This document shows positions 8,150 through 41,127 of a stretch of 64,000 nt of DNA, piece after piece (the stretch's first letter is position 1; the number at the start of each line of letters is the position of its first letter). A program made the position numbers and the translations under genes. This DNA comes from Polyangium mundeleinium (GTDB taxonomy: Bacteria > Myxococcota_A > Polyangia > Polyangiales > Polyangiaceae). Below the pieces are notes generated by a model, which was not told where the DNA came from, did not search any database, and saw only the letters and a program-made list of their open reading frames with translations. The DNA is taken from assembly GCF_028369105.1 (NCBI RefSeq), contig NZ_JAQNDO010000001.1, forward strand, positions 2,349,711 through 2,413,710, read 5' to 3'.

Positions 8150-9712
8150 CTACTCGATTCCGATCGTGAGAGGATTCTTCGAAGAACTCTTGGTCGTCGG
8201 GGTCGGCGGCGGCGAGGCTTTTTCGGGTGTGCCGCTCTTCGTCCCCGGAAGGGAGGACGGCGGGCGTGTCGCCGCGGGCTGGGACGACACCGCGGCGGAA
8301 GCGGATGCGCTCGCCGCCACGGAAGCGCTCTGCGCCGGAGCTTCGGTATCCACGAGCGCCGCTGCAGGTTTCACCTCGGGCTCGGAGGCGGCGGACGGTT
8401 TCGCGGTAGGTGCTGCGACGGCGTTGTCCGGTGTCACGGTGGATTCGACGCGATTCTCTGGAGAACCTCGGAACAAGAAGATACTCCCGACCGCGACGAG
8501 CCCGACCAGCGCGACCGCACCCACGACGAGACCCGTGCGTTTCCCGGACGAACCCGATTCGCCGGCGACATCCTGTCCCGCCTTCGAAACCGCCACCGTC
8601 GGCAGGCTCGACCCGGTATTCCCGTCCGCCGGCATCAGCGGCGGCGGCGGCACGCTCGCCCCCGGCTGCGTGTTCGCGGGGGCGCTCGTCGCGGCGGTTA
8701 CGGCAGGCATCGCGGCTGGGATCGACGATGTGGAGCTCCGGCTCGGCCCGGAGGGCGCCTGCACGGCGACGCCCGAGGCCTCGAGGACACGCTTGGCTTT
8801 CTCGGCCGAGATGCGCGCGGTCGGCGGACCGAATTCGGCAATGCTCAAGGCGAACTCGGCGATGTTGTTGAATCGGTGCTCTCGCTTCTTTTCGAGGCAC
8901 CTGACGATCGCAGCCTCGAGCTCGGCCGGGATGTCGCTCCGGTATTGCGAGAGGGGCGACGGAGGTTCGAGGTTGACCTTGAGGACGAGCTCGGAGAAGG
9001 CCGACCCATGAAAAGGGACTTTCCCGGCGAGGAGCTGGTAGAGGATCACCCCGAGCGCCCAGATGTCGCTCCGCGGATCCACGGCCTTGCTCGATTTGAG
9101 CTGCTCGGGCGACATGTAAAGCGGCGAGCCGAGGACCATCTCGGTCTTCGTGAGCTGCATCCCGTCGCCGCCCTCGGACTCGTTTTCGCTGACCTTCGAG
9201 ATGCCGAAGTCGAGCACCTTGACGCTCTTCGAGCCGTCGGGCGTCGTCGTCAGGAAGAGGTTGGCCGGCTTGAGATCGCGGTGGACGATGCCCGCGGCGT
9301 GCGCCTCGGCGATGGCCTCGCAGGTCTGGAGGATGTAGTCGATTGCCTCGGGGATCGGCAGCGGGCCTTGTGTCTTGAGGTGACGCAGGAGATCGCCGCC
9401 CTCGAGGTACTCCATGACCATGTACGGGGCGCCGCTCCCGAGCTCGCCCACGTCGAGCACGCGCGCCACGTGCTCGCTTTTCAGCCGCACCGCGGCGCGC
9501 GCCTCGCGCAGGAAGCGCGCGACGATATCCGTGTTGTCCGGCTGGAGCAGGTACTTGATGGCGACGCGCTGCCCGAGCTGCAGGTGCATGGCCGCGACGA
9601 CCACGCCCATGCCCCCCTTTCCGAGGATGGATTCGACGCGGTATTTGCCCGCGAGCACGTCCCCTTCGTGAGGGTTCGCGAGGCTGGGCTGCGGAGGCTC
9701 GGTCACGCTCAT
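8150..9712 (-). CDS. Eukaryotic-type Ser/Thr protein kinase, membrane-anchored
   Basis: The 520-aa protein has all canonical kinase elements: Gly loop GKGGMGVV (31-38), VAIK lysine 53, HRDLKPANLF (145-154), DFGISK (169-174), and a SPEQ/SDIWALG segment matching the APE/DxW region. It should therefore be active, unlike the triad kinase at 1496. A disordered A/P/S-rich linker precedes one membrane helix (about 390-411), followed by a low-complexity extracytoplasmic tail without a recognised sensor domain. It heads an operon with the TPR-PEGA gene (13-nt gap) and the lipoprotein, a common myxobacterial arrangement. Likely role: Hanks-type kinase signalling at the cytoplasmic membrane; the substrate is unknown. 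Confidence 0.92.
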   Translation of the reverse strand: MSVTEPPQPSLANPHEGDVLAGKYRVESILGKGGMGVVVAAMHLQLGQRVAIKYLLQPDNTDIVARFLREARAAVRLKSEHVARVLDVGELGSGAPYMVMEYLEGGDLLRHLKTQGPLPIPEAIDYILQTCEAIAEAHAAGIVHRDLKPANLFLTTTPDGSKSVKVLDFGISKVSENESEGGDGMQLTKTEMVLGSPLYMSPEQLKSSKAVDPRSDIWALGVILYQLLAGKVPFHGSAFSELVLKVNLEPPSPLSQYRSDIPAELEAAIVRCLEKKREHRFNNIAEFALSIAEFGPPTARISAEKAKRVLEASGVAVQAPSGPSRSSTSSIPAAMPAVTAATSAPANTQPGASVPPPPLMPADGNTGSSLPTVAVSKAGQDVAGESGSSGKRTGLVVGAVALVGLVAVGSIFLFRGSPENRVESTVTPDNAVAAPTAKPSAASEPEVKPAAALVDTEAPAQSASVAASASASAAVSSQPAATRPPSSLPGTKSGTPEKASPPPTPTTKSSSKNPLTIGIE

Positions 9713-29893: not shown

Positions 29894-30784
29894 TTGACGC
29901 TGCCCACGACGCTTCTCGGCCTGAGCCTCTCGGCGATGCTCCCCACCCCGGTGAGCATGACGCCCCCGCAGCCGTGTACGCCGGCGCGGCTCGGGGCAAA
30001 CGTGTCTGCCCAGCCTGAGGCCTGGCGACACGCGGTCGAGGCGTTGGTCGCGGCGACCGGCACATCGGGGCAGCCCTGGAGCTGTGTGGGCGGCGAGGTC
30101 GATCTGGTCGTCGGGGAGGGAACGGCCAAGGTCACGGTGGTCGACGCGGATGGGCATGCCGTCACGCGTGAGGTCGTCTCGCCAGACGAAGTCGGGCCGG
30201 TTGGTGAGGCGCTCCTCGCCAAGCCGCTTCCTCCGAGCCCCGAGAGCATGCCGCCTCCTCCCACGCCGGAGCAGGAGCAACGGCCGCCGCGTGTGCTTCT
30301 CGGCGGCCTCCTCGGACCCCGTTACGCGGGGCCGGCGCACCGGATCTGGGGCGGGGCGACCCTCATGGCCGCGGTGCCGTTCCAGTCGTGGGGGGGCGGG
30401 GTTTGGCTCCGCCTCGATGGTTTGTCGATGTCGCTCGTCGAGGGGCTGCCGCAGACGGGCGAGCTGTGCATTGGCGCCTCGGCCTTTCGCACGTTCACCA
30501 TCGGATCCGTCGAGCTGCGGCCCGCGCTTCGGCCCTCCCTCGCGGTGGTGACGAGCGTGGTGCCGGAGGAGGATCTCGAAAGCGACAAGAAGTTCGACCA
30601 GGATACGCGTGTCAATTTCCGGATCGGCCTGGAGACCCAGGTCGTCGTCCCGCTCACCGACGCATTTCGCGCATTGATCGCCCTCGACGGCGAAATCTCA
30701 CCAAGCGCGCGCGTGTGGTCGACGGGGCCTTTTCCGGGCTACACGATCGGCCTCGGGGTCGGGATCGAGATGGCGATTCGATGA
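29894..30784 (+). CDS. Envelope protein of unknown function, first gene of a sigma-factor operon
   Basis: The start is uncertain. TTG 29894 keeps most of a hydrophobic signal-like stretch (LPTTLLGLSLSAML); ATG 29936 would give 282 aa and no signal. From TTG the product is 296 aa. After PEAWRHAVEALVAATGTSGQ and a VEVLV-like first domain (GEVDLVVGEGTAKVTVVDAD) comes a Pro-rich spacer (ESMPPPPTPEQEQRPP), then about 170 residues with the Gly/aromatic beta-strand pattern of an outer-membrane barrel (LLGGLLGPRYAGPAHRIWGG, FPGYTIGLGVGIEMAIR with a terminal-strand feel). The stop overlaps the sigma-factor start (ATGA at 30781). This is a common myxobacterial pattern of a periplasmic/outer-membrane protein ahead of an ECF sigma factor and FecR-like regulator. 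Confidence 0.6.
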   Translation: MTLPTTLLGLSLSAMLPTPVSMTPPQPCTPARLGANVSAQPEAWRHAVEALVAATGTSGQPWSCVGGEVDLVVGEGTAKVTVVDADGHAVTREVVSPDEVGPVGEALLAKPLPPSPESMPPPPTPEQEQRPPRVLLGGLLGPRYAGPAHRIWGGATLMAAVPFQSWGGGVWLRLDGLSMSLVEGLPQTGELCIGASAFRTFTIGSVELRPALRPSLAVVTSVVPEEDLESDKKFDQDTRVNFRIGLETQVVVPLTDAFRALIALDGEISPSARVWSTGPFPGYTIGLGVGIEMAIR

Positions 30785-31362
30785 GCACGCTCGCCACCAA
30801 GCGCCTCTCGAACGCCGCCGCGCTCAGCGATGCGGAGCTGCTCCTTGCAATCGCCGAGGGCGAGCTCGGGCCGCTGGGCATCCTCTTCGATCGTTACCAC
30901 GAGCCCTTGCGCCAGTTTCTCCTGCGCGCCGCGCCCAATGTCGCGGATGTCGACGATCTCGTGCAGGAGACGTTCCTCACGGCGACACGCGCGGCCGCCT
31001 CGTTCGACGGGCGTGCCTCGGCATTGCCCTTTTTGATGGGCATTGCGACGCAGCTCCTCCGGCGGCGCAAGCGCACGTTCGCGCGGCTGCGCGCGCTTTA
31101 CGATGCCTTTTGCGCAGCCCCGACGGCGTCGCGGCCAAGCCCGGAGGAGCGCGTGAACCAGGCCCAGGAGGAGGCGCTCCTGCAGGCCGCGATCGCGCGC
31201 CTCTCCGACGAGCGGCGGATCGTGCTGGTGATGGTCGAATACAACGGCATGTCCGGCCCGGAGGTCGCGCAGATCCTGGGCACGCCGGTCGGCACGGTCT
31301 GGCGGCGCCTGCACGAGGCGCGGGCCGAGCTTCGGCGAACGCTGCAAAGGGGGGAGCGATGA
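30781..31362 (+). CDS. ECF-type RNA polymerase sigma factor
   Basis: Start chosen at the ATGA overlap with the upstream gene; 193 aa, the usual ECF length. Sigma region 2 is clear (LFDRYHEPLRQFLLRAAP, DVDDLVQETFLTATRAAASF, ALPFLMGIATQLLRRRKR), followed by region 4 (LSDERRIVLVMVEYNGMSGP, EVAQILGTPVGTVWRRLHEA). It directs RNA polymerase to a regulon that normally includes its own operon. It is coupled on both sides, downstream by ATGA to a zinc-finger/FecR-like protein that is the likely anti-sigma factor. The inducing signal is unknown. Confidence 0.92.
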   Translation: MSTLATKRLSNAAALSDAELLLAIAEGELGPLGILFDRYHEPLRQFLLRAAPNVADVDDLVQETFLTATRAAASFDGRASALPFLMGIATQLLRRRKRTFARLRALYDAFCAAPTASRPSPEERVNQAQEEALLQAAIARLSDERRIVLVMVEYNGMSGPEVAQILGTPVGTVWRRLHEARAELRRTLQRGER

Positions 31363-32564
31363 CGTCTCCGGAGTGCCCGTGGATGAATCTCGTGGAGGCC
31401 CTCCGGGATGGGCGGCTCGGCCTGCAGGAGGGGGCGTCGATGGAGCGCCACCTCAAATCGTGCGCCGTATGCGCCGGTCTCGCGCGTGATCTCACGCGAA
31501 TCGGGGATGCCGTGCGCGCGCCACGCGAGCGGGCGACGCAGCTTTCGCACCAGCGGGCGCGTGTCTCCCTCCTGGAACGAGCGACGGCGCTCCCGACCCC
31601 ACGTGTCTCGTTCGAGAAGACGCGGTTCGTGCTCGCGGCGGCGACGCTGGGCATCGCGGTGGCGGGCGGCTTTTATGGCGGGCAATGGACCGCCGGGACC
31701 CACAGGGTCGCAATCGCGCTGCACATGAGCGCGCCGCCGCGCCTCGAAGGCGCGTTCGAGCCGCAGGTGCGCCCGTCGGACGACGCACGTTTCGCGCGCA
31801 ATCGAAGCGCGGGCCTCGACGAGGTGATCCTCGAGGACGGCGCCCTCGACGTGGCGCGGAGCCGGCACGCGGCGGGGGAGCGGTTCGTCGTGCGCACGAA
31901 AGACGCGCAGATCGAGGTCCGCGCGACCTCCTTGCGGATCGAGGCCAAGGAAGGCCGGATCCGCAGCGTGGCCGTGGAGCAAGGGACGGCCGAGGTTCAG
32001 TATGCGGGATTCACGGCGGTGATTCCGGCAGGTGGATCCTGGCGGGCGACGGGCGACGCGGTCGTCGAGGCGGCCGACCAGGAAAAACCCGTAGCGAAAC
32101 CCGCGCCGGAACCCACGTCGTCTGCGGTCGTCCCGAGTGCTCCGGTGAAAGGAAAAACGTCGGCGCGCACCGTGGCTGTGCGCGGCCATGGGGGGATGCC
32201 GGACCGCCCGTCGGACACCACGAACGAAAACGTCATGGAAGAGAGCTCCTGGGGGACGTCTCCTTCCACGCCCACCCTTGCGCCTCCGCCGCCTGCGCGT
32301 GTCCCTTCGGCCGCGTCGCGCGCGTTTGCCGACGCGATGGCTTCGCTTCGTCGCGGCAATTACGCCGACAGCGCCGACAGATTCGAGCTGTTCGTGTCGA
32401 CGTACCCGGCGGATGCGCGGACCGACGAGGCGGATTATCTGCGAGCTGTCGCGCTTCAGCGCGCCGGTCGTTCTGCGGAGGCCGTCGCCGCCGCCAAGCG
32501 ATACCTCGCGACGCGGCCCAGGGGCGCGCATCGCGTGGACGCGGAGCGCATGGCAGGAAACTAA
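31359..32564 (+). CDS. Anti-sigma-like membrane protein with zinc finger, FecR domain and TPR-like tail
   Basis: Start chosen at ATG 31359 (ATGA overlap with the sigma gene); 401 aa. The N-terminus has a zf-HC2-like motif (MERHLKSCAVCAGLARDL: H, C, C), one membrane helix (TRFVLAAATLGIAVAGGF, about residues 88-106), then a FecR-like periplasmic domain (HMSAPPRLEGAFEPQVRPSD...VEQGTAEVQYAGFTAVIPAG). A disordered linker leads to a C-terminal TPR/YbgF-like tail (SFAD-type FADAMASLRRGNYADSADRF, YPADARTDEADYLRAVALQR). It should bind the sigma factor in the cytoplasm and sense the envelope through FecR and TPR. The TPR tail is an addition to the usual anti-sigma layout. Confidence 0.85.
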   Translation: MTSPECPWMNLVEALRDGRLGLQEGASMERHLKSCAVCAGLARDLTRIGDAVRAPRERATQLSHQRARVSLLERATALPTPRVSFEKTRFVLAAATLGIAVAGGFYGGQWTAGTHRVAIALHMSAPPRLEGAFEPQVRPSDDARFARNRSAGLDEVILEDGALDVARSRHAAGERFVVRTKDAQIEVRATSLRIEAKEGRIRSVAVEQGTAEVQYAGFTAVIPAGGSWRATGDAVVEAADQEKPVAKPAPEPTSSAVVPSAPVKGKTSARTVAVRGHGGMPDRPSDTTNENVMEESSWGTSPSTPTLAPPPPARVPSAASRAFADAMASLRRGNYADSADRFELFVSTYPADARTDEADYLRAVALQRAGRSAEAVAAAKRYLATRPRGAHRVDAERMAGN

Positions 32565-32883: not shown

Positions 32884-34200
32884 GTGAGAGAACGCCCGCA
32901 GACGATTCGCCCCGCCACCGGCAAGCTCGCCGTTTTGCTCCCTGGCCTCGGCGCCGTGGCCACCACCTTCATCGCCGGCGTGCTCCTCGCTCGCAAAGGG
33001 CTCGCCAAGCCGATCGGCTCGCTCACGCAAATGGGCACCATTCGCCTCGGCAAGCGCACCGAGGACCGCTTCCCGCTTGTCCACGAGGCCGTCCCGCTGG
33101 CGTCGCTCGACGATCTCGTGTTCGGTGCCTGGGACATTTTCCCCGACAACGCGCTCGAGGTCGCGCGGCACGCGGAGGTGCTCGAAGCGCGCCACGTCGA
33201 CGCGGTGGCCGCGGAGCTCGCGCAAATCAAGCCCATGGCCGGCGCGTTTTACCCGGAATACGTGCGCCGCCTCCATGGTACGCACGTCAAGGCGGCCCGA
33301 TCCAAGGCGGAAATGGTCGAGCAGGTCCGCGACGACATCCGCGGGTTCATCCAGCGCCAGGGGGCCGAGCGCGCCGTGGCGATCTGGTGCGGCAGCACGG
33401 AGGTCTACATCGCCCAGGGCGAGGTGCACCAGAGCATCGCGGCCTTCGAGGCGGGCCTCGCCGCCGACGATCCGAGCATTTCCAGCGCGCAGATTTATGC
33501 CTGGGCCTGCCTCAAGGAGCGGGTCCCCTTCGCCAATGGGGCGCCGAACCTCTGCGTCGATTTTCCCGCTGCCTGGCAGCTCGCGCGGGAGATGGGCGTG
33601 CCCATCGCGGGCAAGGATTTCAAGACGGGACAAACGCTGATGAAGACCATCCTCGCCCCGGGGCTCAAGGCCCGCAGCCTGGGGTTGCAGGGGTGGTTCT
33701 CCACGAACATCCTCGGCAATCGCGACGGCGAGGTGCTCGACGATCCGAACTCGTTCAAGACGAAAGAGGTCTCCAAGCTCGGCGTCCTCGAGCAAATCCT
33801 CCAGCCCCCTCGGTATCCGGACCTCTATGGCAACATCTACCACAAGGTCCGTATCGAGTTTTACCCACCGCGCGGCGACGCCAAGGAGGGCTGGGACAAC
33901 CTCGATATCTTCGGGTGGCTCGGGTATCCGATGCAGATCAAGGTCAACTTCCTCTGCCGAGACTCGATTCTCGCGGCGCCGATCGTGCTCGACCTGGCGC
34001 TCTTGCTCGACCTCGCGTCGCGCGCGTCGATGCGGGGGACGCAGGAGTGGTTGAGCTTCTATTTCAAGAGCCCGATGACGGCGCCGGAGCTCTACCCGGA
34101 GCATGACCTCTTCATCCAATCGATGAAGCTCAAGAACACGCTGCGGTGGATGATCGGCGAGGAGCTGATCACGCACCTCGGCAACGAATACTACGACTGA
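32884..34200 (+). CDS. ino1: myo-Inositol-1-phosphate synthase
   Basis: The 438-aa product converts glucose 6-phosphate to 1D-myo-inositol 3-phosphate with NAD+. Family motifs visible: Rossmann start LAVLLPGLGAVATTFIAGVL, IKPMAGAFYPEYVRR, FANGAPNLCVDFPAAW, PIAGKDFKTGQTLMKTILAP, STNILGNRDGEVLDDPNSFK, FKTKEVSKLGVLE, and FLCRDSILAAPIVLDLALLL. The length matches the longer actinobacterial/proteobacterial MIPS form. GTG start with GAGGAG about 5 nt upstream. It is the first of four closely spaced genes (28-nt gap, then two overlaps) for an inositol-containing membrane lipid, and supplies the inositol headgroup. Confidence 0.95.
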   Translation: MRERPQTIRPATGKLAVLLPGLGAVATTFIAGVLLARKGLAKPIGSLTQMGTIRLGKRTEDRFPLVHEAVPLASLDDLVFGAWDIFPDNALEVARHAEVLEARHVDAVAAELAQIKPMAGAFYPEYVRRLHGTHVKAARSKAEMVEQVRDDIRGFIQRQGAERAVAIWCGSTEVYIAQGEVHQSIAAFEAGLAADDPSISSAQIYAWACLKERVPFANGAPNLCVDFPAAWQLAREMGVPIAGKDFKTGQTLMKTILAPGLKARSLGLQGWFSTNILGNRDGEVLDDPNSFKTKEVSKLGVLEQILQPPRYPDLYGNIYHKVRIEFYPPRGDAKEGWDNLDIFGWLGYPMQIKVNFLCRDSILAAPIVLDLALLLDLASRASMRGTQEWLSFYFKSPMTAPELYPEHDLFIQSMKLKNTLRWMIGEELITHLGNEYYD

Positions 34201-34228
34201 TCCCGGCGGCGACGTGGCGAGGCGAGTG

Positions 34229-35158
34229 ATGAAGCTACGGCCGACAGGCGAGGGGAGCGCGTGGGCGTGGGCGTCCCTCGGGGGCGCTCCGCTCCTGCTC
34301 CTGCTGATTCACGCGACGCTGGGGCTCCGGCCCGAGCACTTTTTCTTCGTGGGCATGTTCCTGGTCCTCGTCTGGACCGGGCCGCGCGCGCGGCGGTTCG
34401 CGGCGATCGCCGCGCCCTTCGTGCTCACCGGACTCGCCTACGATTTTCTGCGCCTGTTCATTCACCTGCGCGGGGAGGTCCACGTGGCCGATCTCTTCGA
34501 GGCCGAGCGCGCGCTCTTCGGTATCGGCACGAGCGCGGGACGGGTGCCCATTTCGGAGCTCGTCGCGCGCGCGATGCACCCGGCCGTCGATGCGCTCACC
34601 GGTGTCGTTTACCTCCTTTACCTGATCCAGGTCTTCGCGGTCGGGGCGTACCTATACGTTCGTGATCAGGAGCGCATGCAGCGGCTGGCATGGGGCTTCG
34701 CGGCCGCGAGCCTGCTCGGCTGGATCATCTGGATCGCCTGGCCGGCGGCGCCGCCCTGGTACGTCGACCTCTACGGCGCAGGTCCCGCGGTGCTCGACGC
34801 GCCCTCGAATCCCGCCGGAGGAGCGCGCTTCGACGCCCTGTTCGGGGTCCGCATTTTTCACACGTTTTATGCGCGCAGCTCCAACGTGTTCGGGGCCATG
34901 CCCTCGTTGCACGTGGGATATGCCGTGCTGCCCGCGTTCGTCTCCTGGTCCCTGGGCGGCCGGCTGCGCGCATTCACCGTCGCGTGGGCCGCGGTCATGG
35001 CATTCTCCGCCATGTACCTCCGGCACCATTACATCCTCGACATCATCGCCGGCGTCGCGGTGGCCTTCGCCGCCGATCGCTTGGTCCACCTCGCGCAGCG
35101 CGCGCTGCTCGAACCGGCGCCGCGCAAAGACGGCGCCTCCCCCGAGGTCTCGGTATGA
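34229..35158 (+). CDS. PAP2-type membrane protein, probable Aur1-like inositol phosphorylceramide synthase
   Basis: ATG 34229 is chosen (GAGG 6 nt upstream); GTG 34214 is possible. The 309-aa protein has about six membrane helices and three PAP2 catalytic segments: APPWYVDLYG preceding the pocket, GAMPSLHVGY (with the S-x-H) and YLRHHYILDIIAGVAVAF (second His and Asp). The FYARSSNVFGAMPSLHVGY arrangement is typical of Aur1-type inositol phosphorylceramide synthases, which move phosphoinositol from phosphatidylinositol to ceramide, rather than of simple phosphatases. The neighbouring MIPS and CDP-alcohol transferase genes support this. Substrate is inferred; a phosphatidylinositol-phosphate phosphatase is an alternative. 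Confidence 0.78.
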   Translation: MKLRPTGEGSAWAWASLGGAPLLLLLIHATLGLRPEHFFFVGMFLVLVWTGPRARRFAAIAAPFVLTGLAYDFLRLFIHLRGEVHVADLFEAERALFGIGTSAGRVPISELVARAMHPAVDALTGVVYLLYLIQVFAVGAYLYVRDQERMQRLAWGFAAASLLGWIIWIAWPAAPPWYVDLYGAGPAVLDAPSNPAGGARFDALFGVRIFHTFYARSSNVFGAMPSLHVGYAVLPAFVSWSLGGRLRAFTVAWAAVMAFSAMYLRHHYILDIIAGVAVAFAADRLVHLAQRALLEPAPRKDGASPEVSV

Positions 35159-36423
35159 GCGTGCTCTCCGACTGGTTCACCGGCAGTCTCTCGGCCGCCC
35201 TGCGCATCTGGACCGCGGCCGCGCCCGCGCTGCTCCTCATCGCGTACGCGTTGATCGGCCTCGCCGCTTATGTGGTGCGCACCCTGGCCTGGGGCCGCTT
35301 CCACGACGAGGAGGCCGACGGGCGTGGGCTCGGCGGGCTGACCACTGCGCGCGCGCGCCACTTCTTCGCCTGGCTGATGCGTCCGCTCTGGCAGGGGCTG
35401 GCTGCCGCGGGGGTGCCTCCCAATGCCATCACCACGCTGGCGGTGGGCCTCGCGGCGGGCGGCGGGGTCGCCATTGCGGCGGGACGCTTCGCGCTGGGCG
35501 GGTGGCTCTACGTCAGCGCGGGCGCGCTCGATTATCTGGACGGGCGGGTCGCGCGCGCCACCGGGCAGGCCTCGCCGAGCGGCGCCGCGCTCGACTCGGT
35601 GCTCGATCGTTATTGCGAGTCGGCCGTGCTCGTGGGCCTCGCCTGGTATTACCGCGAGAGCTGGGTGCTCCTGCCCTGCCTGCTCGCGCTCACCGGCTCG
35701 CTCTTCGTCCCTTATGTGCGCGCCCGCGGCGAGGCGCTCGGCGCCACCATGAAGGACGTGGGCTTCATGCAGCGCGCGGAGCGTATCCTCGTGCTCGGCC
35801 TCTCCGTCGCGCTCAGCCCCATTCTGGAGGCCGTCGTCTCGCCGGAGGACCCGCGCCCGCCGCATTGGATCGCGGCCGCCGGCGTCACCCTCATCGCGCT
35901 CACGTCACACGCGACCGCATTCCAGCGGCTCGCGTTCCTGGTCCGCGCGTTGAGCGGCAGCTTGCCACGCGACGACCGCCGGTCGTTGCCCCGGACCATT
36001 GCCGTGAGCGCGCTCGCCACGGCGCTCGATTTTGCCGTTGTGCAGATGCTCATGATCGGGACCGGCGCGCCGCCGCCGCTCGCCACGGGCGTGGGCTGCG
36101 TGGCGGGTGGGATCGTGGCCTTCACGCTCTCGCGCGTGTGGGCCTTCGAGGCCGAGGCCGGCCCGCGCGGAAGCCAGGCCATGCGCTTCCTGTTCGTCTC
36201 CGGATCGAGCGCCGCCCTCAATGCGGGCGGCGTCGCCGTGCTCCTCTTCTTGCCTGCCATGAACGACCGCCTCGCCTGGGTCCTCACCCGCCTCGTCGTG
36301 TTCGTCACCTGGAACTACCCTCTGCTCCGCGACCACGTGTTCGCGCTCGGGCCCGCCGCGAACGACGCGAACGACGAGGTCCCCCTGAGCGACCCGAGGG
36401 AGCGTGATGTCAGCCGCGCCTGA
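35155..36423 (+). CDS. CDP-alcohol phosphatidyltransferase fused to a GtrA-like domain, probable PI(P) synthase
   Basis: Start at the ATGA overlap (35155) with the PAP2 gene; 422 aa. The N-terminal about 280 residues are a CDP-alcohol phosphatidyltransferase: DYLDGRVARATGQASPSG followed by AALDSVLDRY, an exact D-x2-DG-x2-AR-x8-G-x3-D-x3-D match. The C-terminal about 130 residues have four membrane helices of the GtrA type (AVSALATALDFAVVQMLMIG, FTLSRVWAFEAEAGPRGSQA, RFLFVSGSSAALNAGGVAVL, VTWNYPLLRDHVF). With MIPS upstream, the transferase most likely joins CDP-diacylglycerol to inositol or inositol phosphate. GtrA proteins are thought to move polyprenyl-linked sugars across membranes; here the fused domain may flip the lipid product. 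Confidence 0.85.
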   Translation: MSVLSDWFTGSLSAALRIWTAAAPALLLIAYALIGLAAYVVRTLAWGRFHDEEADGRGLGGLTTARARHFFAWLMRPLWQGLAAAGVPPNAITTLAVGLAAGGGVAIAAGRFALGGWLYVSAGALDYLDGRVARATGQASPSGAALDSVLDRYCESAVLVGLAWYYRESWVLLPCLLALTGSLFVPYVRARGEALGATMKDVGFMQRAERILVLGLSVALSPILEAVVSPEDPRPPHWIAAAGVTLIALTSHATAFQRLAFLVRALSGSLPRDDRRSLPRTIAVSALATALDFAVVQMLMIGTGAPPPLATGVGCVAGGIVAFTLSRVWAFEAEAGPRGSQAMRFLFVSGSSAALNAGGVAVLLFLPAMNDRLAWVLTRLVVFVTWNYPLLRDHVFALGPAANDANDEVPLSDPRERDVSRA

Positions 36424-38908
36424 TCACCACGGCGACGCGCGCCTCGGCCCCGTGCCCGCCGCCATCCGCGCGGTCCTCGCGCGCGTGGCGGTCGCCGCGT
36501 TTCGGCACGCCGGCCTCGCCATCGTGCTTGTGGCCCTCGCCGCCGCGCTGGGCACCTGGTCCGCCGGCCGGCTCAAGCTCGATCCCGACATCACCCAGCT
36601 CCTGCCGCCCAGTTACCCGAGCGTGCAGGGCATCGAGGCGCTGCGGAAGCGCTTCGGCGGGGTGGGGTACGTGGTGCTCCTCGTCGAGGGCGGGGACCAG
36701 GCCGCGCGACGGCGCTTCGCGGACGAGATCACGCCCCGCCTCGAAAAGCTCGAGACGGTGCAGTACGTCGACCACCGCTTCCCGGCGGAGTTTTTCGAAG
36801 ATCGCGCCCTCTACTTCGCGGACCAGCCCGACCTCGCCACGCTTCGGGATCGCCTCGCTGCGCGCCAGCGCTGGGAGATCGAGCGCTCCTACATCGACAT
36901 CGACGACGAACAGCCGCCCCCGGTCGACGTCGCGGACTTCGAAGCCAAGTACAAGAAGCGCCTCGAAGACACCGGCGGCGCGCGGCGCGGGCCGTACCAC
37001 GAGGACGAGACCGGCAAGACCCTGGCCGTCCTCGTCCGCCCGACCCGGCTGGCCTCCGACCTCACGTTCGCGAAGCAGGTCGTCGCGGACGTGAAGCGCG
37101 TGCTCCAGGAGGCGCAGCCCACGGCCTACGCGCCGGATCTCCGCGTCGAGCTCACCGGCCGCTACCCGAAGCGCGTCGACCTCCAGGCGGTGCTCGGGCG
37201 CGACCTCGCGCTGACGTCCTCGCTCGCGCTTGGCCTCGTCATCGCCTACCTGGCCTTCCATTTTCGGCGCGTGCTCGCCATCGGCCTGGTGCTCGCGCCA
37301 CTCTACGCGGGCCTCGCGCTCGCATACGGCGCCGCGGGCGCGCTCTTCGGGACGCTCAACATCCTGACCGCCTTCATCGGCGCCATCCTCGTCGGCATCG
37401 GCATGGACCACGGCGTCCACCTCCTCGGCCGCTACGAGGAGGAGCGACGCGCCGGCGCAGCCGAGGAGGAGGCGATCCGTCGCGCCTTCGGCGAAGCGGG
37501 CCGCGTCTCGCTCGCCGCCGCGCTGACCACTGCTGCGGCGTTCGGCTGCCTCACCTGGACGGACTTCCGCGCCTTCCGCGAGTTCGGCCTGCTCGCCGCG
37601 CTCGGCACGCTGTTTGTCCTGCTCGCGTACGTCACGCTGCTCCCCGCGCTGCTCGGCGTGCTCGCGCGCCACGCGCCACGCCTCTCGCCCGTGCGCGCCG
37701 GCGTGGAGCTCCCCGGCGTGCGCTTCATGCACCGCGCGGCCCCGGTGCTCTTTTGGGGCCTCCTCGTCGCGTGTGGCCTTGCGCTCACCCAGCTCCCCCG
37801 CGCCCGTTTCGACGCCGACTTCTCCCACCTCGACGACGCCGACCTGCCGAGCTTCCGCCGCGACCGCGAGGTCAACGCGCTGCTCGGCCGCTCGCAGACC
37901 CCGATGGTCGTGCTCGCCCGCAGCGAGGCCGAGGCGCGCGAGGTCTCTGCCGCTGTGCGCGCGCGCATGGACGCGCTCGGCCCCGACGCCTCCATCGGCC
38001 TGATCGCCACGCGCGCCGATCTGCTCCCGACCGACCAGGAAGCGAAGCGCCCGCTCCTGCGCGACATCGCCCGAATCACGTCCCGGATTCGCCCCGAGAG
38101 CCTCGACGCGGACACGCGCGGTCGGCTCGAACGGCTTCAGCGCATGGCCGCGGCCGAGCCCTTCGGCCCTCCCGACCTGCCGCCCGCGCTGCGCCACACC
38201 TTCGAGCCCCACCCCGGCGCCGACCCCGTGCACTTCGTCCTGCTCTACCCGACGGTGAGCATGGGCGAAGCCGCCGGGATCAAGCGGCTCGCGGCGCAGC
38301 TCCGTCGCATCGATCTGCCTGGGGGCGAGGCGCTCGCGGCCGCCGGCGAACCGATGGTGCTCGCCGACGTGCTCGAGACGATCGAGCGCGACGCACCGCG
38401 CATCCTCGTGGCCACCGGCGTGTTTGTCCTGATCGTCCTTTACATCACGCTCGGCCGCTTTCGGCTCGCGCTGCTCGCGCTTGCGCCGGCCGTCCTCTGT
38501 CTCGCGGTGACGATCGCGCTGCTCCCCGTCTTCGGCGCCCAGCTAAATTATCTGAACATGATCGTGCTGCCGATCCTTCTCGGGATCAGCGTGGACGACG
38601 GCGCGCACCTGCTCGCGCGTGTGGACGCGGGCGAGTCGCTCGAAAAAGTGTGGCAACACACGGGCTGGGATGTCACCGGCGCCATTCTCACCGACGGCTT
38701 TGGCTTCGGCGTGCTCGCGCTGGCGACGCACCCAGGCCTGGCAAGCGTCGGCACGCTGTCGCTGCTCGGCCTTGGCGTGAACCTCGTCGCCTGTGTCGTC
38801 CTGCTCCCGGCCGGGCTCGCCCTGTTGCATGCCTGGAAAGCACGGCCTCGCGCAGCCGAACGTGCATCCGAGCCTTCGACGGCGCCGCCCCCGCAAGCCG
38901 ACTCCTGA
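36407..38908 (+). CDS. RND/MMPL-family lipid exporter
   Basis: ATG 36407 is chosen over GTG 36404 (GAGGGAG site); 833 aa. The product has a duplicated RND fold: helix 1, a large periplasmic loop (about residues 55-260), helices 2-6 with GIGMDHGVHLLGRYEEERRA, then a second half with another loop and GISVDDGAHLLARVDAGESL. The GxxxD motifs are the proton-relay regions of RND/MMPL proteins. This single-chain form, without adaptor or outer-membrane genes, resembles hopanoid and lipid transporters of the HpnN/MmpL type. It overlaps the phosphatidyltransferase gene by 17 nt, so it probably exports or positions the inositol lipid made by the three upstream genes. Substrate is inferred. Confidence 0.88.
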   Translation: MSAAPDHHGDARLGPVPAAIRAVLARVAVAAFRHAGLAIVLVALAAALGTWSAGRLKLDPDITQLLPPSYPSVQGIEALRKRFGGVGYVVLLVEGGDQAARRRFADEITPRLEKLETVQYVDHRFPAEFFEDRALYFADQPDLATLRDRLAARQRWEIERSYIDIDDEQPPPVDVADFEAKYKKRLEDTGGARRGPYHEDETGKTLAVLVRPTRLASDLTFAKQVVADVKRVLQEAQPTAYAPDLRVELTGRYPKRVDLQAVLGRDLALTSSLALGLVIAYLAFHFRRVLAIGLVLAPLYAGLALAYGAAGALFGTLNILTAFIGAILVGIGMDHGVHLLGRYEEERRAGAAEEEAIRRAFGEAGRVSLAAALTTAAAFGCLTWTDFRAFREFGLLAALGTLFVLLAYVTLLPALLGVLARHAPRLSPVRAGVELPGVRFMHRAAPVLFWGLLVACGLALTQLPRARFDADFSHLDDADLPSFRRDREVNALLGRSQTPMVVLARSEAEAREVSAAVRARMDALGPDASIGLIATRADLLPTDQEAKRPLLRDIARITSRIRPESLDADTRGRLERLQRMAAAEPFGPPDLPPALRHTFEPHPGADPVHFVLLYPTVSMGEAAGIKRLAAQLRRIDLPGGEALAAAGEPMVLADVLETIERDAPRILVATGVFVLIVLYITLGRFRLALLALAPAVLCLAVTIALLPVFGAQLNYLNMIVLPILLGISVDDGAHLLARVDAGESLEKVWQHTGWDVTGAILTDGFGFGVLALATHPGLASVGTLSLLGLGVNLVACVVLLPAGLALLHAWKARPRAAERASEPSTAPPPQADS

Positions 38909-39160
38909 TCGTCGCATTGCAACAAGGCCGGGCCCTTCGTGTGCCCGTGACAACGAATACGGCATCAATGCCGCGTCGGTCGTCCTGCCAAACCACGTCG
39001 ACGTCACGGCGCATAGAAGCGAGAAGCCGGGCAAATCGGGGCTCCTGTCCGGTCCTGCGCGGCTCGTCCCCGGCAGGACCCGGCTCGTCCGGGGAACACG
39101 GCCACTCGTCCGATCCACGTTTTCCCCGCGCGGGACGGCCGGTAGCTGTATAAGTTGCAT

Positions 39161-40330
39161 ATGAGCGTTCCCGAGCCCGAGCTGTCCAGAGGCGCGCCTT
39201 CCGCGAGTGATTCGCCCCCCTATGTGTATTTCTTCGGCTGGAAGCGCTTCGTGGCGACGACGGCCGTCATCCTGGCCATCTTCTTTTGGCCCCTCACGCC
39301 CTCCGACCCACAACGAAACAACACGGCCAACCTGCTTTTCTTGACGACGGGCGTGCCTGCGCTCCTGCTCGCGCTCTCGGGGGTCTTCCACTGGGCCACG
39401 CGCCGGCGCCTCAGCTCGGCGAAGACCCTGCTCGTGAGCCTCGCCGTCGCCTCCATCGCGGGCACGATGCTCATCGTGGGCTTCTGGTTCGTGCAGCAGT
39501 GGTTGCATATCCCACCGCCCGCCGGGCAGCCCCCCGCGACGTATCCGCGCGTCATCCGGTTTGGTATCACGTTCGGCCTCTTCATTTGCGCCATATGGGC
39601 GCTGGCGTTCTTGTATCCCTTCGCCACGGAGGATGCCCGGCGGCGCGCGTTCGAGGCCGAGAAGCTCAAGCTCGAGGCCGACAGGCTGCGGACCGCGGGC
39701 GAGCTCGTCCGGCTGCGCGCGCAGCTCGAGCCCCATTTCCTGCTGAACACCCTCAACGCCATCGCGGGCCTCGTCACGCAGGATCCTCGCGAAGCCCGCC
39801 GCCTTCTCGCTTGCCTGGCCGACCTCCTGCGCGACGCGCTGCACGATGTCGACGAGATGCGTACGCTGAGGGAGGAGATCGCCTGGCTTCAACGGTATGC
39901 CGAAATCCTGGAATCGCGCCACGCCGGGATGCTGCGCTTCCAATGGGACATCGCGGATCGAGCGACCGATGTCCTCTTGCCCCCGCTGCTCCTGCAGCCG
40001 CTCGTGGAGAATGCCGTGAAGCATGGCGCCCTGCGACGAGATGGGGGCGGAGAGGTGCGGGTGTGCGCGGCGATCACGGAGAGCGGTGACGGGGCCTTGC
40101 GGCGCCTCGTCTGCACGGTCGAGGACAATGGCCCTGGCATACCGGCCAAGCCGACGCGCTCGGGGGCATTGGGTCTGCACGCGGTGCGCCGGCGCATGGA
40201 GCTCAAGTACACGGATGCGAGCTTGCAGATTGAATCGTCGGCCGAGGGGACACGATGCACCGTCGAGCTCCCCTGCGTCCTTCTGCACGCGCCGCGCACG
40301 ATGGGCGCGACCCTGGAGGTTTCTCGATGA
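39161..40330 (+). CDS. LytS-type sensor histidine kinase
   Basis: ATG 39161 is preferred over TTG 39155; 389 aa. Three to four membrane helices (about residues 25-155: VATTAVILAIFFW, LLFLTTGVPALLLALS, TLLVSLAVASIAGTMLIVGF, FGITFGLFICAIWALAF) are followed by a His-kinase segment with RLRAQLEPHFLLNTLNAI and the HATPase motifs PLVENAVKHG, EDNGPGIPAK and GALGLHAVRRRM. It phosphorylates the response regulator whose start overlaps its stop (ATGA at 40327). A TATAAG box at 39149-39154 lies only 7 nt before the ATG, suggesting a leaderless transcript. The 252 nt upstream hold no gene but a TCCTGC...GCAGGA inverted repeat. The small sensing region suggests a membrane signal. Confidence 0.9.
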   Translation: MSVPEPELSRGAPSASDSPPYVYFFGWKRFVATTAVILAIFFWPLTPSDPQRNNTANLLFLTTGVPALLLALSGVFHWATRRRLSSAKTLLVSLAVASIAGTMLIVGFWFVQQWLHIPPPAGQPPATYPRVIRFGITFGLFICAIWALAFLYPFATEDARRRAFEAEKLKLEADRLRTAGELVRLRAQLEPHFLLNTLNAIAGLVTQDPREARRLLACLADLLRDALHDVDEMRTLREEIAWLQRYAEILESRHAGMLRFQWDIADRATDVLLPPLLLQPLVENAVKHGALRRDGGGEVRVCAAITESGDGALRRLVCTVEDNGPGIPAKPTRSGALGLHAVRRRMELKYTDASLQIESSAEGTRCTVELPCVLLHAPRTMGATLEVSR

Positions 40331-41127
40331 ACATGGTTCCCACGGCGGGGGATGCCTACCGGCTCCGTGCGCTCGTCGTCGAGGACGAGTGGCCTGCCCG
40401 CAATTACCTGGTCGAGCTCATCGAAGCGTCGGGCCTCGCGGAGGTCGTCGGCGCCGTCGCCAGCTTGGGCGAGGCGCGACAGGCGCTGCAGCTCGCGGCG
40501 GGCGGACCCGAGCTGGATGTCGTCTTTGTGGACATCGCGCTCACCGGCAGCGACGACGCCACGGGGCTCGATCTGGTGCGCGCCTCGGTGCACGATCCCC
40601 GCCGGCCGATGTTCGTGCTGGCCACGGCATTCAAGGAGCATGCAATCGAGGCTTTCGCGCTGGGCGTCGACGATTACCTGCTCAAGCCCTTCACGCAGGA
40701 GCGCGTGGACCAATGCTTGCGCCGCCTCCACGCGCGCAAGCGCCCGTCGCCGGCCGCGGGCCCGCTGCGAATCGTCGCGCGCCGGGGCAAGAACCTCGTC
40801 TTCCTCGAGCCCAGCGAGGTATGGGCGTTCGAGGCCGCCGATCGGCTCACGTCCGTGCACACGCCCCACGGCACGTTCGACCTCGACCTCTCCTTGGCGT
40901 CGATCGAGGCGTCCTTCGGGCGAGCGCTCACGCGCGTCCACAGAAACTGGCTCGTCAATGCGGCTTACATCAAGGAGCTCGAGCGCGACGGAGGGGATAC
41001 GCGCATATTCGTCGGCGTGGGCATCGGCCCCGAGCGGCGCGGCGTGTGCGTGCCCGTCTCGCGTGACCGCGCCCAATCCGTGCGCGATATGCTGCTCGCC
41101 AGCGCCACCGGCCTCCGCCGCGGCTGA
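40327..41127 (+). CDS. LytTR-family response regulator
   Basis: Start at the ATGA overlap with the kinase stop; 266 aa. The receiver domain has LRALVVEDEWPARNYLVELI, the phospho-acceptor Asp in VVFVDIALTG, and the ATAFKEHAIEAFALGVDDYL segment ending LLKPF. The C-terminal LytTR DNA-binding domain reads RIVARRGKNLVFLEPSEVWA, TPHGTFDLDLSLASIEASFG and RVHRNWLVNAAYIKELERDG. It should bind DNA as a dimer at direct repeats upstream of target promoters. With the LytS kinase it forms an autonomous two-component system. Its targets are not evident; the inositol-lipid cluster 250 nt upstream of the kinase is one possibility. Confidence 0.92.
   Translation: MNMVPTAGDAYRLRALVVEDEWPARNYLVELIEASGLAEVVGAVASLGEARQALQLAAGGPELDVVFVDIALTGSDDATGLDLVRASVHDPRRPMFVLATAFKEHAIEAFALGVDDYLLKPFTQERVDQCLRRLHARKRPSPAAGPLRIVARRGKNLVFLEPSEVWAFEAADRLTSVHTPHGTFDLDLSLASIEASFGRALTRVHRNWLVNAAYIKELERDGGDTRIFVGVGIGPERRGVCVPVSRDRAQSVRDMLLASATGLRRG

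Follow-up and report, generated by a model that had tools for sequence, protein, structure and literature searches.

A predicted inositol phosphorylceramide operon with a candidate MMPL exporter in Polyangium mundeleinium

A window of 64,000 nucleotides (bases 2,349,711 to 2,413,710 of contig 1 of the 13.25 Mb Polyangium mundeleinium genome) carries a four-gene operon that is predicted to make and export inositol phosphorylceramide (IPC, also ceramide phosphoinositol), a reading to which a probability of roughly 0.7 was assigned as a whole. The genes, all on the forward strand, encode MIPS, a PAP2 protein, a CDP-alcohol transferase and an MMPL protein, in that order and with spacings of +13, -4 and -20 bases, and the family of each was confirmed by Pfam profile search. 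The first-pass annotation had named the same genes with their tiny gaps and overlaps, which the coordinates and Pfam bear out, and had read them as a myxobacterial route to an inositol lipid, probably IPC; sequence, fold and gene context support that reading, with the lipid itself as a prediction.

Enzymes of the predicted pathway

A PDB sequence search with the PAP2 protein returned chains of yeast Aur1 as the only significant matches (1.3e-24 and 1.6e-24), the third match being an antibody chain at E 2.1, which is noise. The PAAPPWY, GAxPSLH and MYLxHHYxxD motifs are in register between the window protein and yeast Aur1. An alignment of 44 PAP2 sequences, the window protein included, was invariant at APPWY (A179-Y183), D207, P230-S231-H233, H271-H272 and D276, and nearly so at P177; H233 is taken to be a PAP2 catalytic histidine, and H272 and D276 are likewise presumed to be catalytic. 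The sole NCBIfam match at 1e-5 was NF052609, phosphoinositol dihydroceramide synthase (7.7e-52). An AlphaFold (AF2) model with a mean pLDDT of 94 was matched by Foldseek to two Aur1 structures (E 1.7e-11 and 2.5e-11), and superposition on yeast Aur1 (9vj4, 9ivc) gave Z scores of 24.0-24.1 over 269-286 residues, although with just 27-28% identity, versus Z 16.3 over 162 residues for LpxE and Z 14.0 for PgpB. The fold, the His-His-Asp residues and the PAAPPWY motif of the Aur1/IPC synthase family are all present. A plain phosphatase was rejected as the identity of the protein by fold and sequence. The Aur1-type motifs proposed in the first-pass annotation are borne out by the PDB matches, NF052609 and the fold, and in the profile comparison that it had suggested the protein grouped with Aur1 and the BT1522 model and not with plain phosphatases.

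A PAP2 tree of 117 rows was built from 131 loci after removal of one short row (L091), 13 near-copies and the fusion L076, and addition of a yeast segment. The window protein fell within a supported clade of 38 rows (100/97) with Myxococcus and Corallococcus, on the side of the tree that reads HHY, with Bacteroidota and M. xanthus. The yeast Aur1 segment formed a long branch of unsure placement, and for this reason no claim is made on the origin of fungal Aur1. L104, filed as Comamonas sp. KCTC 72670, fell inside Myxococcus and is probably a misnamed or contaminated record. A second transferase/Aur1-like pair in the same genome (C1:7191582-7193326; L042 7583-8473 and about 8605-9327), present in 6/6 genomes of the genus, has an Aur1-like protein that reads HHY yet is grouped by the tree with the HHW proteins.

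The transferase carries the full CDP-alcohol phosphotransferase signature (D-x2-D-G-x2-A-R...G-x3-D-x3-D). The first-pass annotation had recognised this exact signature and had overlooked a C-terminal GtrA domain fused in the same frame. The best PDB relatives, M. tuberculosis PgsA1 (6h5a, 1.5e-16) and R. salmoninarum PIPS (5d91, 6e-14), are phosphatidylinositol phosphate (PIP) synthases, and the top NCBIfam models were archaetidylinositol phosphate synthase (9.6e-39), NF045883 PIPSynth (3.4e-31) and NF052561 PIPSynBT1523 (8.4e-28). Arginines R94, R155 and R195 (M. tuberculosis numbering), described in passages of PMC6506517 and PMC4634129 as binding inositol phosphate, are kept. The protein differs from both solved enzymes in having Arg in place of K135, an additional N-terminal stretch and the GtrA domain. 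PgsA and PssA were ruled out as identities by the PDB and NCBIfam matches; the arginines and these matches group the transferase with PIP synthases and not, as the first-pass annotation had allowed for, with PgsA-type enzymes. PIPS-GtrA fusions were counted in 44 open frames, a figure that includes loci common to both locus sets described below and of which three (window, L099, L103) were checked with Pfam. Further pathway fusions joined Aur1-like and PgpA domains (two frames) and PIPS and Aur1-like domains (one frame), one or more examples of each fusion type being Pfam-checked. For MIPS, the best solved relative was 7nwr, an inositol-3-phosphate synthase (1.4e-167).

Serine palmitoyltransferase (SPT), whose presence elsewhere in the genome the first-pass annotation had proposed as a check, was found: an SPT-like enzyme (L016 7296-9152) has SPT as its best PDB match (1.8e-111) and scores 468 bits with NF047600, followed by another SPT model at 388 and the best non-SPT models at 349-362. 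A single-copy CerS-like GNAT gene (C1:11172408-11173502, 1.4e-73) was detected with the GNAT that lies between SPT and the epimerase in the Bacteroidota cluster as query. The strongest single tie of the PAP2 family to ceramide is a Bacteroidota locus (L150) in which SPT, GNAT, epimerase, MIPS, PgpA, GtrA, PIPS, FA_hydroxylase and Aur1-like genes form one run on one strand; its record is titled uncultured Bacteroides, is nearly identical to Ohtaekwangia L159, and is also probably misnamed or contaminated.

Close SPT orthologues (68% identity or more, two being partial matches) were found in 23 of 41 PAP2-bearing genomes versus 23 of 75 others (n=116; Fisher 0.0099, kinship uncorrected), where PAP2-bearing means E <= 1e-20 and the weaker G042, G049, G080 and G088 are counted among the others. 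Within the order-level sample, all six genomes with a window-type PAP2 also had the orthologue (G000, which is the window's own genome, G003, G004, G005, G032 and G036). When the AOS enzymes of 34 cluster-bearing genomes, drawn from the 80 named loci described below, were scored against the SPT model, 23 reached 396 bits or more (HHY group 20/26, HHW group 3/8) and 11 reached 360 or less. A rule that the cluster implies SPT was rejected, since the orthologue counts do not separate cleanly. The CerS-like GNAT, searched for in 24 genomes, was still present in 11 of the 12 SPT-orthologue-negative genomes tested (the exception being G057), which leaves room for a divergent SPT in them; because the AOS enzymes of SPT-negative genomes (four L177-type proteins and two others) had no clear NCBIfam assignment, absence of SPT from them cannot be concluded. 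NF047601 was discarded as a ceramide synthase model, being of the MscS family.

Several side observations concern the ceramide genes. A polyangial group of Aur1-like proteins (e.g. L059, L070, L083) reads HHW instead of HHY, often with SPT unrecognised and the CerS-like GNAT present, and would have either a divergent SPT or another acceptor. SPT, GNAT and SDR genes form one run in M. xanthus AM003 (L234 5805-9553). Fatty acid hydroxylase genes, possibly linked to hydroxylated ceramides, lie near the inositol cluster in Corallococcus (L117 13604-14338) and inside it in Bacteroidota (L150 9307-9933). An Opitutaceae locus (L139 4690-8790) combines an AOS (SPT-like) domain, a ketoacyl synthase and a phosphopantetheine domain in one frame that adjoins CerS-like GNAT and Aur1-like genes.

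In the proposed pathway, MIPS would supply inositol phosphate, which the PIP synthase half of the fusion would join to CDP-diacylglycerol; the resulting PIP would be converted to phosphatidylinositol (PI) by some phosphatase, a PgpA-like enzyme in Bacteroides and in the clusters of many relatives. The Aur1-type protein would then use PI as phosphoinositol donor and ceramide as acceptor, the ceramide coming from the SPT and GNAT ceramide synthase encoded elsewhere in the genome, and the GtrA domain may help to place substrates, as one report on BT1524 suggests. Finally, the MMPL pump would take up either the completed lipid or PI at the inner membrane and move it in the direction of the outer membrane. 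The enzyme families, their coupling and the SPT-like and GNAT genes of the genome are established by sequence, fold and gene context; the substrates are those predicted for the families, and IPC is the highly probable product.

The nearest known system is BT1522-1526 of B. thetaiotaomicron, described in parts of PMC9246714 and PMC8791184 as a knock-out-tested set of PI-dihydroceramide synthase, PIP synthase, GtrA protein, PgpA-like PIP phosphatase and MIPS. Counterparts for four of the five were found in the window (MIPS for BT1526, PIPS with its arginines and the same signature for BT1523, the fused GtrA domain for BT1524 and the Aur1-type protein for BT1522), with SPT elsewhere in the genome; the window differs in that PIPS and GtrA are one protein, an MMPL protein is added, no PgpA-type phosphatase was found in the cluster and the phylum is another. 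Ceramide phosphoinositol has been reported in Myxococcus xanthus (Lorenzen 2014, as cited in a passage of PMC9246714), and an inositol sphingolipid in myxobacteria is on that account not new; no gene assignment for it was found in literature listings that covered few subscription journals. M. xanthus AM003 (L103) has MIPS, Aur1-like and PIPS-GtrA genes in the same order as the window and the same predicted lipid. Unlike the window, its nearest MMPL genes are a divergent pair ~7 kb off, and a PTPase-type gene follows the cluster.

MMPL protein as candidate exporter

The MMPL protein was nearest to HpnN (PDB 5khn, 2.9e-28; TIGR03480, 9.3e-84), which is known for hopanoids. It shares the MMPL/RND family with the HpnN hopanoid and BstA sterol transporters, its lipid-transporter kin, but lies far below both cut-offs and is tied to inositol-lipid genes; on its sequence it is classed as an HpnN-like MMPL protein only.

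Gene neighbourhoods were counted in two partly overlapping sets, one of 51 loci, which includes the window and the second locus of the same genome, and one of 80 named loci (80 kept of 177 relatives at the locus), with a domain cut-off of E <= 1e-4 and, in the 51-locus set, a sequence cut-off of E 1e-5; contig ends hide neighbours at some loci. The same gene set recurs together in other genomes, and the closest named relative at the locus, among the matches listed, was Polyangium fumosum (94% PAP2 protein identity). Counting the window, 30 of the 51 loci had an MMPL gene at 5 kb or less from the PAP2 gene, 27 of them with both genes on one strand; in the 80-locus set this held for 34 loci, 21 of them with both on one strand, and gene order varied. 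Twenty arbitrary 20-kb stretches from the same genome and four single-contig relatives contained no match to any of nine query proteins; for MMPL, 0/20 versus the locus counts gave a Fisher value of 1.5e-6, kinship uncorrected, and because the lineages are related the locus counts overstate independence. This recurrence, together with the empty control stretches, makes the gene grouping more than chance.

Two loci from metagenome-assembled genomes (MAGs; L099 and L101) carry MMPL and PgpA as one open frame with both Pfam domains. MMPL homologues were searched in 20 genomes. The two best are on the cluster's contig in M. xanthus (G116, ~7.5 kb), Corallococcus (G117, ~2.5 kb) and Pyxidicoccus (G121, ~20 kb), and the third-best directly adjoins SPT in all four Myxococcaceae genomes (those three and the MAG G123). 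The M. xanthus AM003 case lies on contig C320 (L234 5805-12486), with further cases in L235-L237, the L235 contig ending at SPT. In two genomes of the genus (G001, G002), neither a window-type PAP2 nor a matching MMPL was found, the best MMPL having 28-29% identity. At C1:9.64 Mb (L020 7518-11249), another CDP-alcohol transferase gene and an MMPL gene are transcribed divergently and may be a second lipid-export pair.

The export link proposed in the first-pass annotation thereby gained comparative support from the neighbourhood, the MMPL-PgpA fusions and the SPT neighbours, with export itself remaining a prediction. The recurrent association with MMPL is a matter of gene context, from which the cargo and the direction of transport are predicted, and the protein is rather likely to be an exporter of IPC. 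The wider proposal, that Myxococcota and some neighbouring diderms export inositol sphingolipids through an HpnN-like MMPL protein dedicated to them and coupled to their synthesis genetically and, in the two MAGs, physically, is put at about even odds. No literature linking an MMPL protein to export of a bacterial sphingolipid or inositol lipid was found among the top listings, which covered few subscription journals.

Contrary evidence and alternative explanations

Several observations weigh against the operon as a complete IPC synthesis and export unit. Model cut-offs were not reached by the PAP2 protein (176.6 bits versus an equivalog cut-off of 480 for NF052609), by the transferase with any of its top NCBIfam models, by the SPT (468 versus 640 for NF047600) or by the MMPL protein, whose 282 bits compare with a TIGR03480 cut-off of 751.85, so that it does not pass as an HpnN hopanoid transporter. 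Just 13/51 and 40/80 loci have MIPS at 5 kb or less from the PAP2 gene. Close SPT orthologues are wanting in 18 of the 41 PAP2-bearing relatives, and 11 of the 34 cluster-bearing genomes have no AOS enzyme above 360 bits, including 4 of the 15 tested from the window's own 38-row clade (L101, L128, L129 and L137, all MAGs; 11/15 have one). An MMPL gene near PAP2 was seen at 0/14 Bacteroidota and 0/5 Verrucomicrobiota loci, and an MMPL protein is therefore not required everywhere. In the MAG G123, the two best MMPL homologues lie on a contig other than the cluster's, and the second pair at L042 has no MIPS, GtrA, PgpA or MMPL match within the fetched stretches. As to the GtrA domain, loss of BT1524 gave less IPC and more PI in a passage of PMC8791184 and, contrary to this, no lipid change by thin-layer chromatography in one of PMC9246714.

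The PgpA profile PF04608 had no match in the whole genome or in any of the six genomes of the genus, and 39 of the 116 genomes searched have one. Since PgpA was not found here, the PIP phosphatase of the known route must be replaced or bypassed. At L059, MIPS, transferase, GtrA, Aur1-like, PgpA and MMPL lie in one row; the fetched Myxococcaceae cluster loci had no PgpA match. A PTPase-type gene (searched for in 26 genomes) follows the cluster at 23 loci, almost always Myxococcaceae (e.g. L103 6906-7487, L117 13096-13677), and is a candidate PgpA replacement as PIP phosphatase. Two such genes put to Pfam pass PF22741 and narrowly miss DSPc; the best match in the window's own genome is weak (29% identity, 49 bits).

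With PgpA not found, some phosphatase is needed, and the operon might make only the glycerolipid PI, for instance an ether PI, with the PAP2 protein as the substitute PIP phosphatase and no ceramide involved; LpxE and PgpB are examples of phosphatases with the PAP2 fold, and some cluster-bearing relatives are without a clear SPT. This is unlikely, given that fold and sequence favour Aur1 well over the phosphatases and that the genome encodes both an SPT-like enzyme and a CerS-like GNAT. Relatives with PgpA in the cluster moreover keep the same PAP2 beside it or even fused to it, so the two are not alternatives in those relatives. A shade less probable again is that the Aur1-type protein passes phosphoinositol to a different acceptor in place of ceramide, for instance a glycan carrier or some other hydroxylated lipid. 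The HHW group, common in polyangial genomes and often without a recognised SPT, would fit such an acceptor, as would the members of the window's own clade that lack one; the window PAP2, however, groups in the tree with HHY proteins, among them those of Bacteroidota and M. xanthus, its type is accompanied by SPT in 6/6 genomes of the order-level sample, and the GNAT persists in nearly all SPT-orthologue-negative genomes. Production of the soluble solute di-myo-inositol phosphate instead of a membrane lipid is very improbable and was set aside on NCBIfam scores: the transferase matches a DIPP-synthase model weakly (1.4e-12) and an IPCT-like gene adjoins the second MIPS of the genome, but the PIP and archaetidylinositol phosphate synthase models score far better, no IPCT domain is fused to or adjacent in the operon, and the transferase is accompanied by Aur1-like and MMPL proteins, both of lipid families.

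For the pump, the alternative is an unrelated transporter of drugs, hopanoids or another lipid that is co-transcribed by chance. The genome has several MMPL relatives (nine matching stretches in G000), HpnN is known for hopanoids, and Bacteroidota loci have no MMPL nearby, all of which would suit this explanation. It is nonetheless doubtful, as the neighbourhood recurs despite changed gene order and is missing from the arbitrary stretches, MMPL and PgpA are fused in two MAGs, and four Myxococcaceae genomes have a relative of the pump next to SPT. Export of the inositol sphingolipid is accordingly preferred as the predicted role.

Locus features and implications

The coordinates of the features are collected in Table 1. 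The PAP2 start is uncertain, a GTG at 34214 having been used and an ATG at 34229 being possible; for MMPL, an ATG at 36407 is an alternative start. A promoter and terminator scan gave 0 promoter-like and 8 terminator-like sites, none inside the short gaps of the four genes.

Table 1. Features of the predicted inositol phosphorylceramide operon, in window positions
Feature	Position	Strand	Evidence
MIPS	32884-34200	+	PF07994 9.1e-96, PF01658 2.5e-30
Aur1-type PAP2, predicted inositol phosphorylceramide (phosphoinositol dihydroceramide) synthase	34214-35158	+	PF14378 1.7e-25
PAAPPWY motif, residues 177-183, common to yeast Aur1	34742-34762	+	alignment
GAMPSLH motif with H233	34892-34912	+	alignment; P230, S231, H233 invariant
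HHYILD motif with H272, D276; HHY as in yeast Aur1	35024-35041	+	alignment, tree
CDP-alcohol phosphotransferase-GtrA fusion, predicted phosphatidylinositol-phosphate (PIP) synthase	35155-36423	+	PF01066 1.5e-11 and PF04138, one frame
Transferase signature DYLDGRVAR...GAALDSVLD	35530-35607	+	pattern and alignment; next residue is the conserved Arg (R94, M. tuberculosis numbering)
GtrA/DPMS membrane domain, counterpart of free-standing BT1524	36001-36330 (about)	+	PF04138 8.4e-13, residues 283-392
MMPL/RND transporter, HpnN kind, predicted exporter	36404-38908	+	PF03176 3.3e-39

Upstream of the operon, at about 30767-32564, lie an ECF-type sigma factor gene (recognised by eye) and a FecR-domain gene, and downstream, at 39155-41127, genes for a LytS-type kinase and a LytTR regulator; both pairs are possible regulators of the operon. 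Elsewhere in the genome, at ~C1:9.81 Mb, a second MIPS gene (L018 7260-8573, + strand) is divergent from a nucleotidyltransferase gene (L018 5744-6598, - strand) that scores best in NCBIfam with a bifunctional inositol-1-phosphate cytidylyltransferase model (4.7e-39, short of the cut-off). This pair may represent a CDP-inositol route, by analogy with that proposed for Prevotella in a passage of PMC9246714.

Ceramide phosphoinositol, which has been described from M. xanthus, gains candidate genes from the operon. The lipid class is known from that species and the enzyme set from Bacteroides, and what appears new is the link to an exporter, the fusions and the lack of a recognised phosphatase. 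The operon is a case in which the usual PIP phosphatase was not found, and the PIPS-GtrA fusion offers a starting point on the debated function of BT1524. The route of bacterial sphingolipids to the outer membrane is called unknown in a passage of PMC11324152, where LptC2/F2/G2 and a flippase are candidates in Caulobacter with a mechanism described as not known; LptC2/F2/G2 are of another transporter class than the window MMPL and address the same question, for which the cluster names a single candidate gene. If the predicted role is true, a dedicated MMPL protein would be a defined non-Lpt route for a bacterial sphingolipid out of the inner membrane, and would perhaps receive the lipid on its release from the Aur1-type active site.

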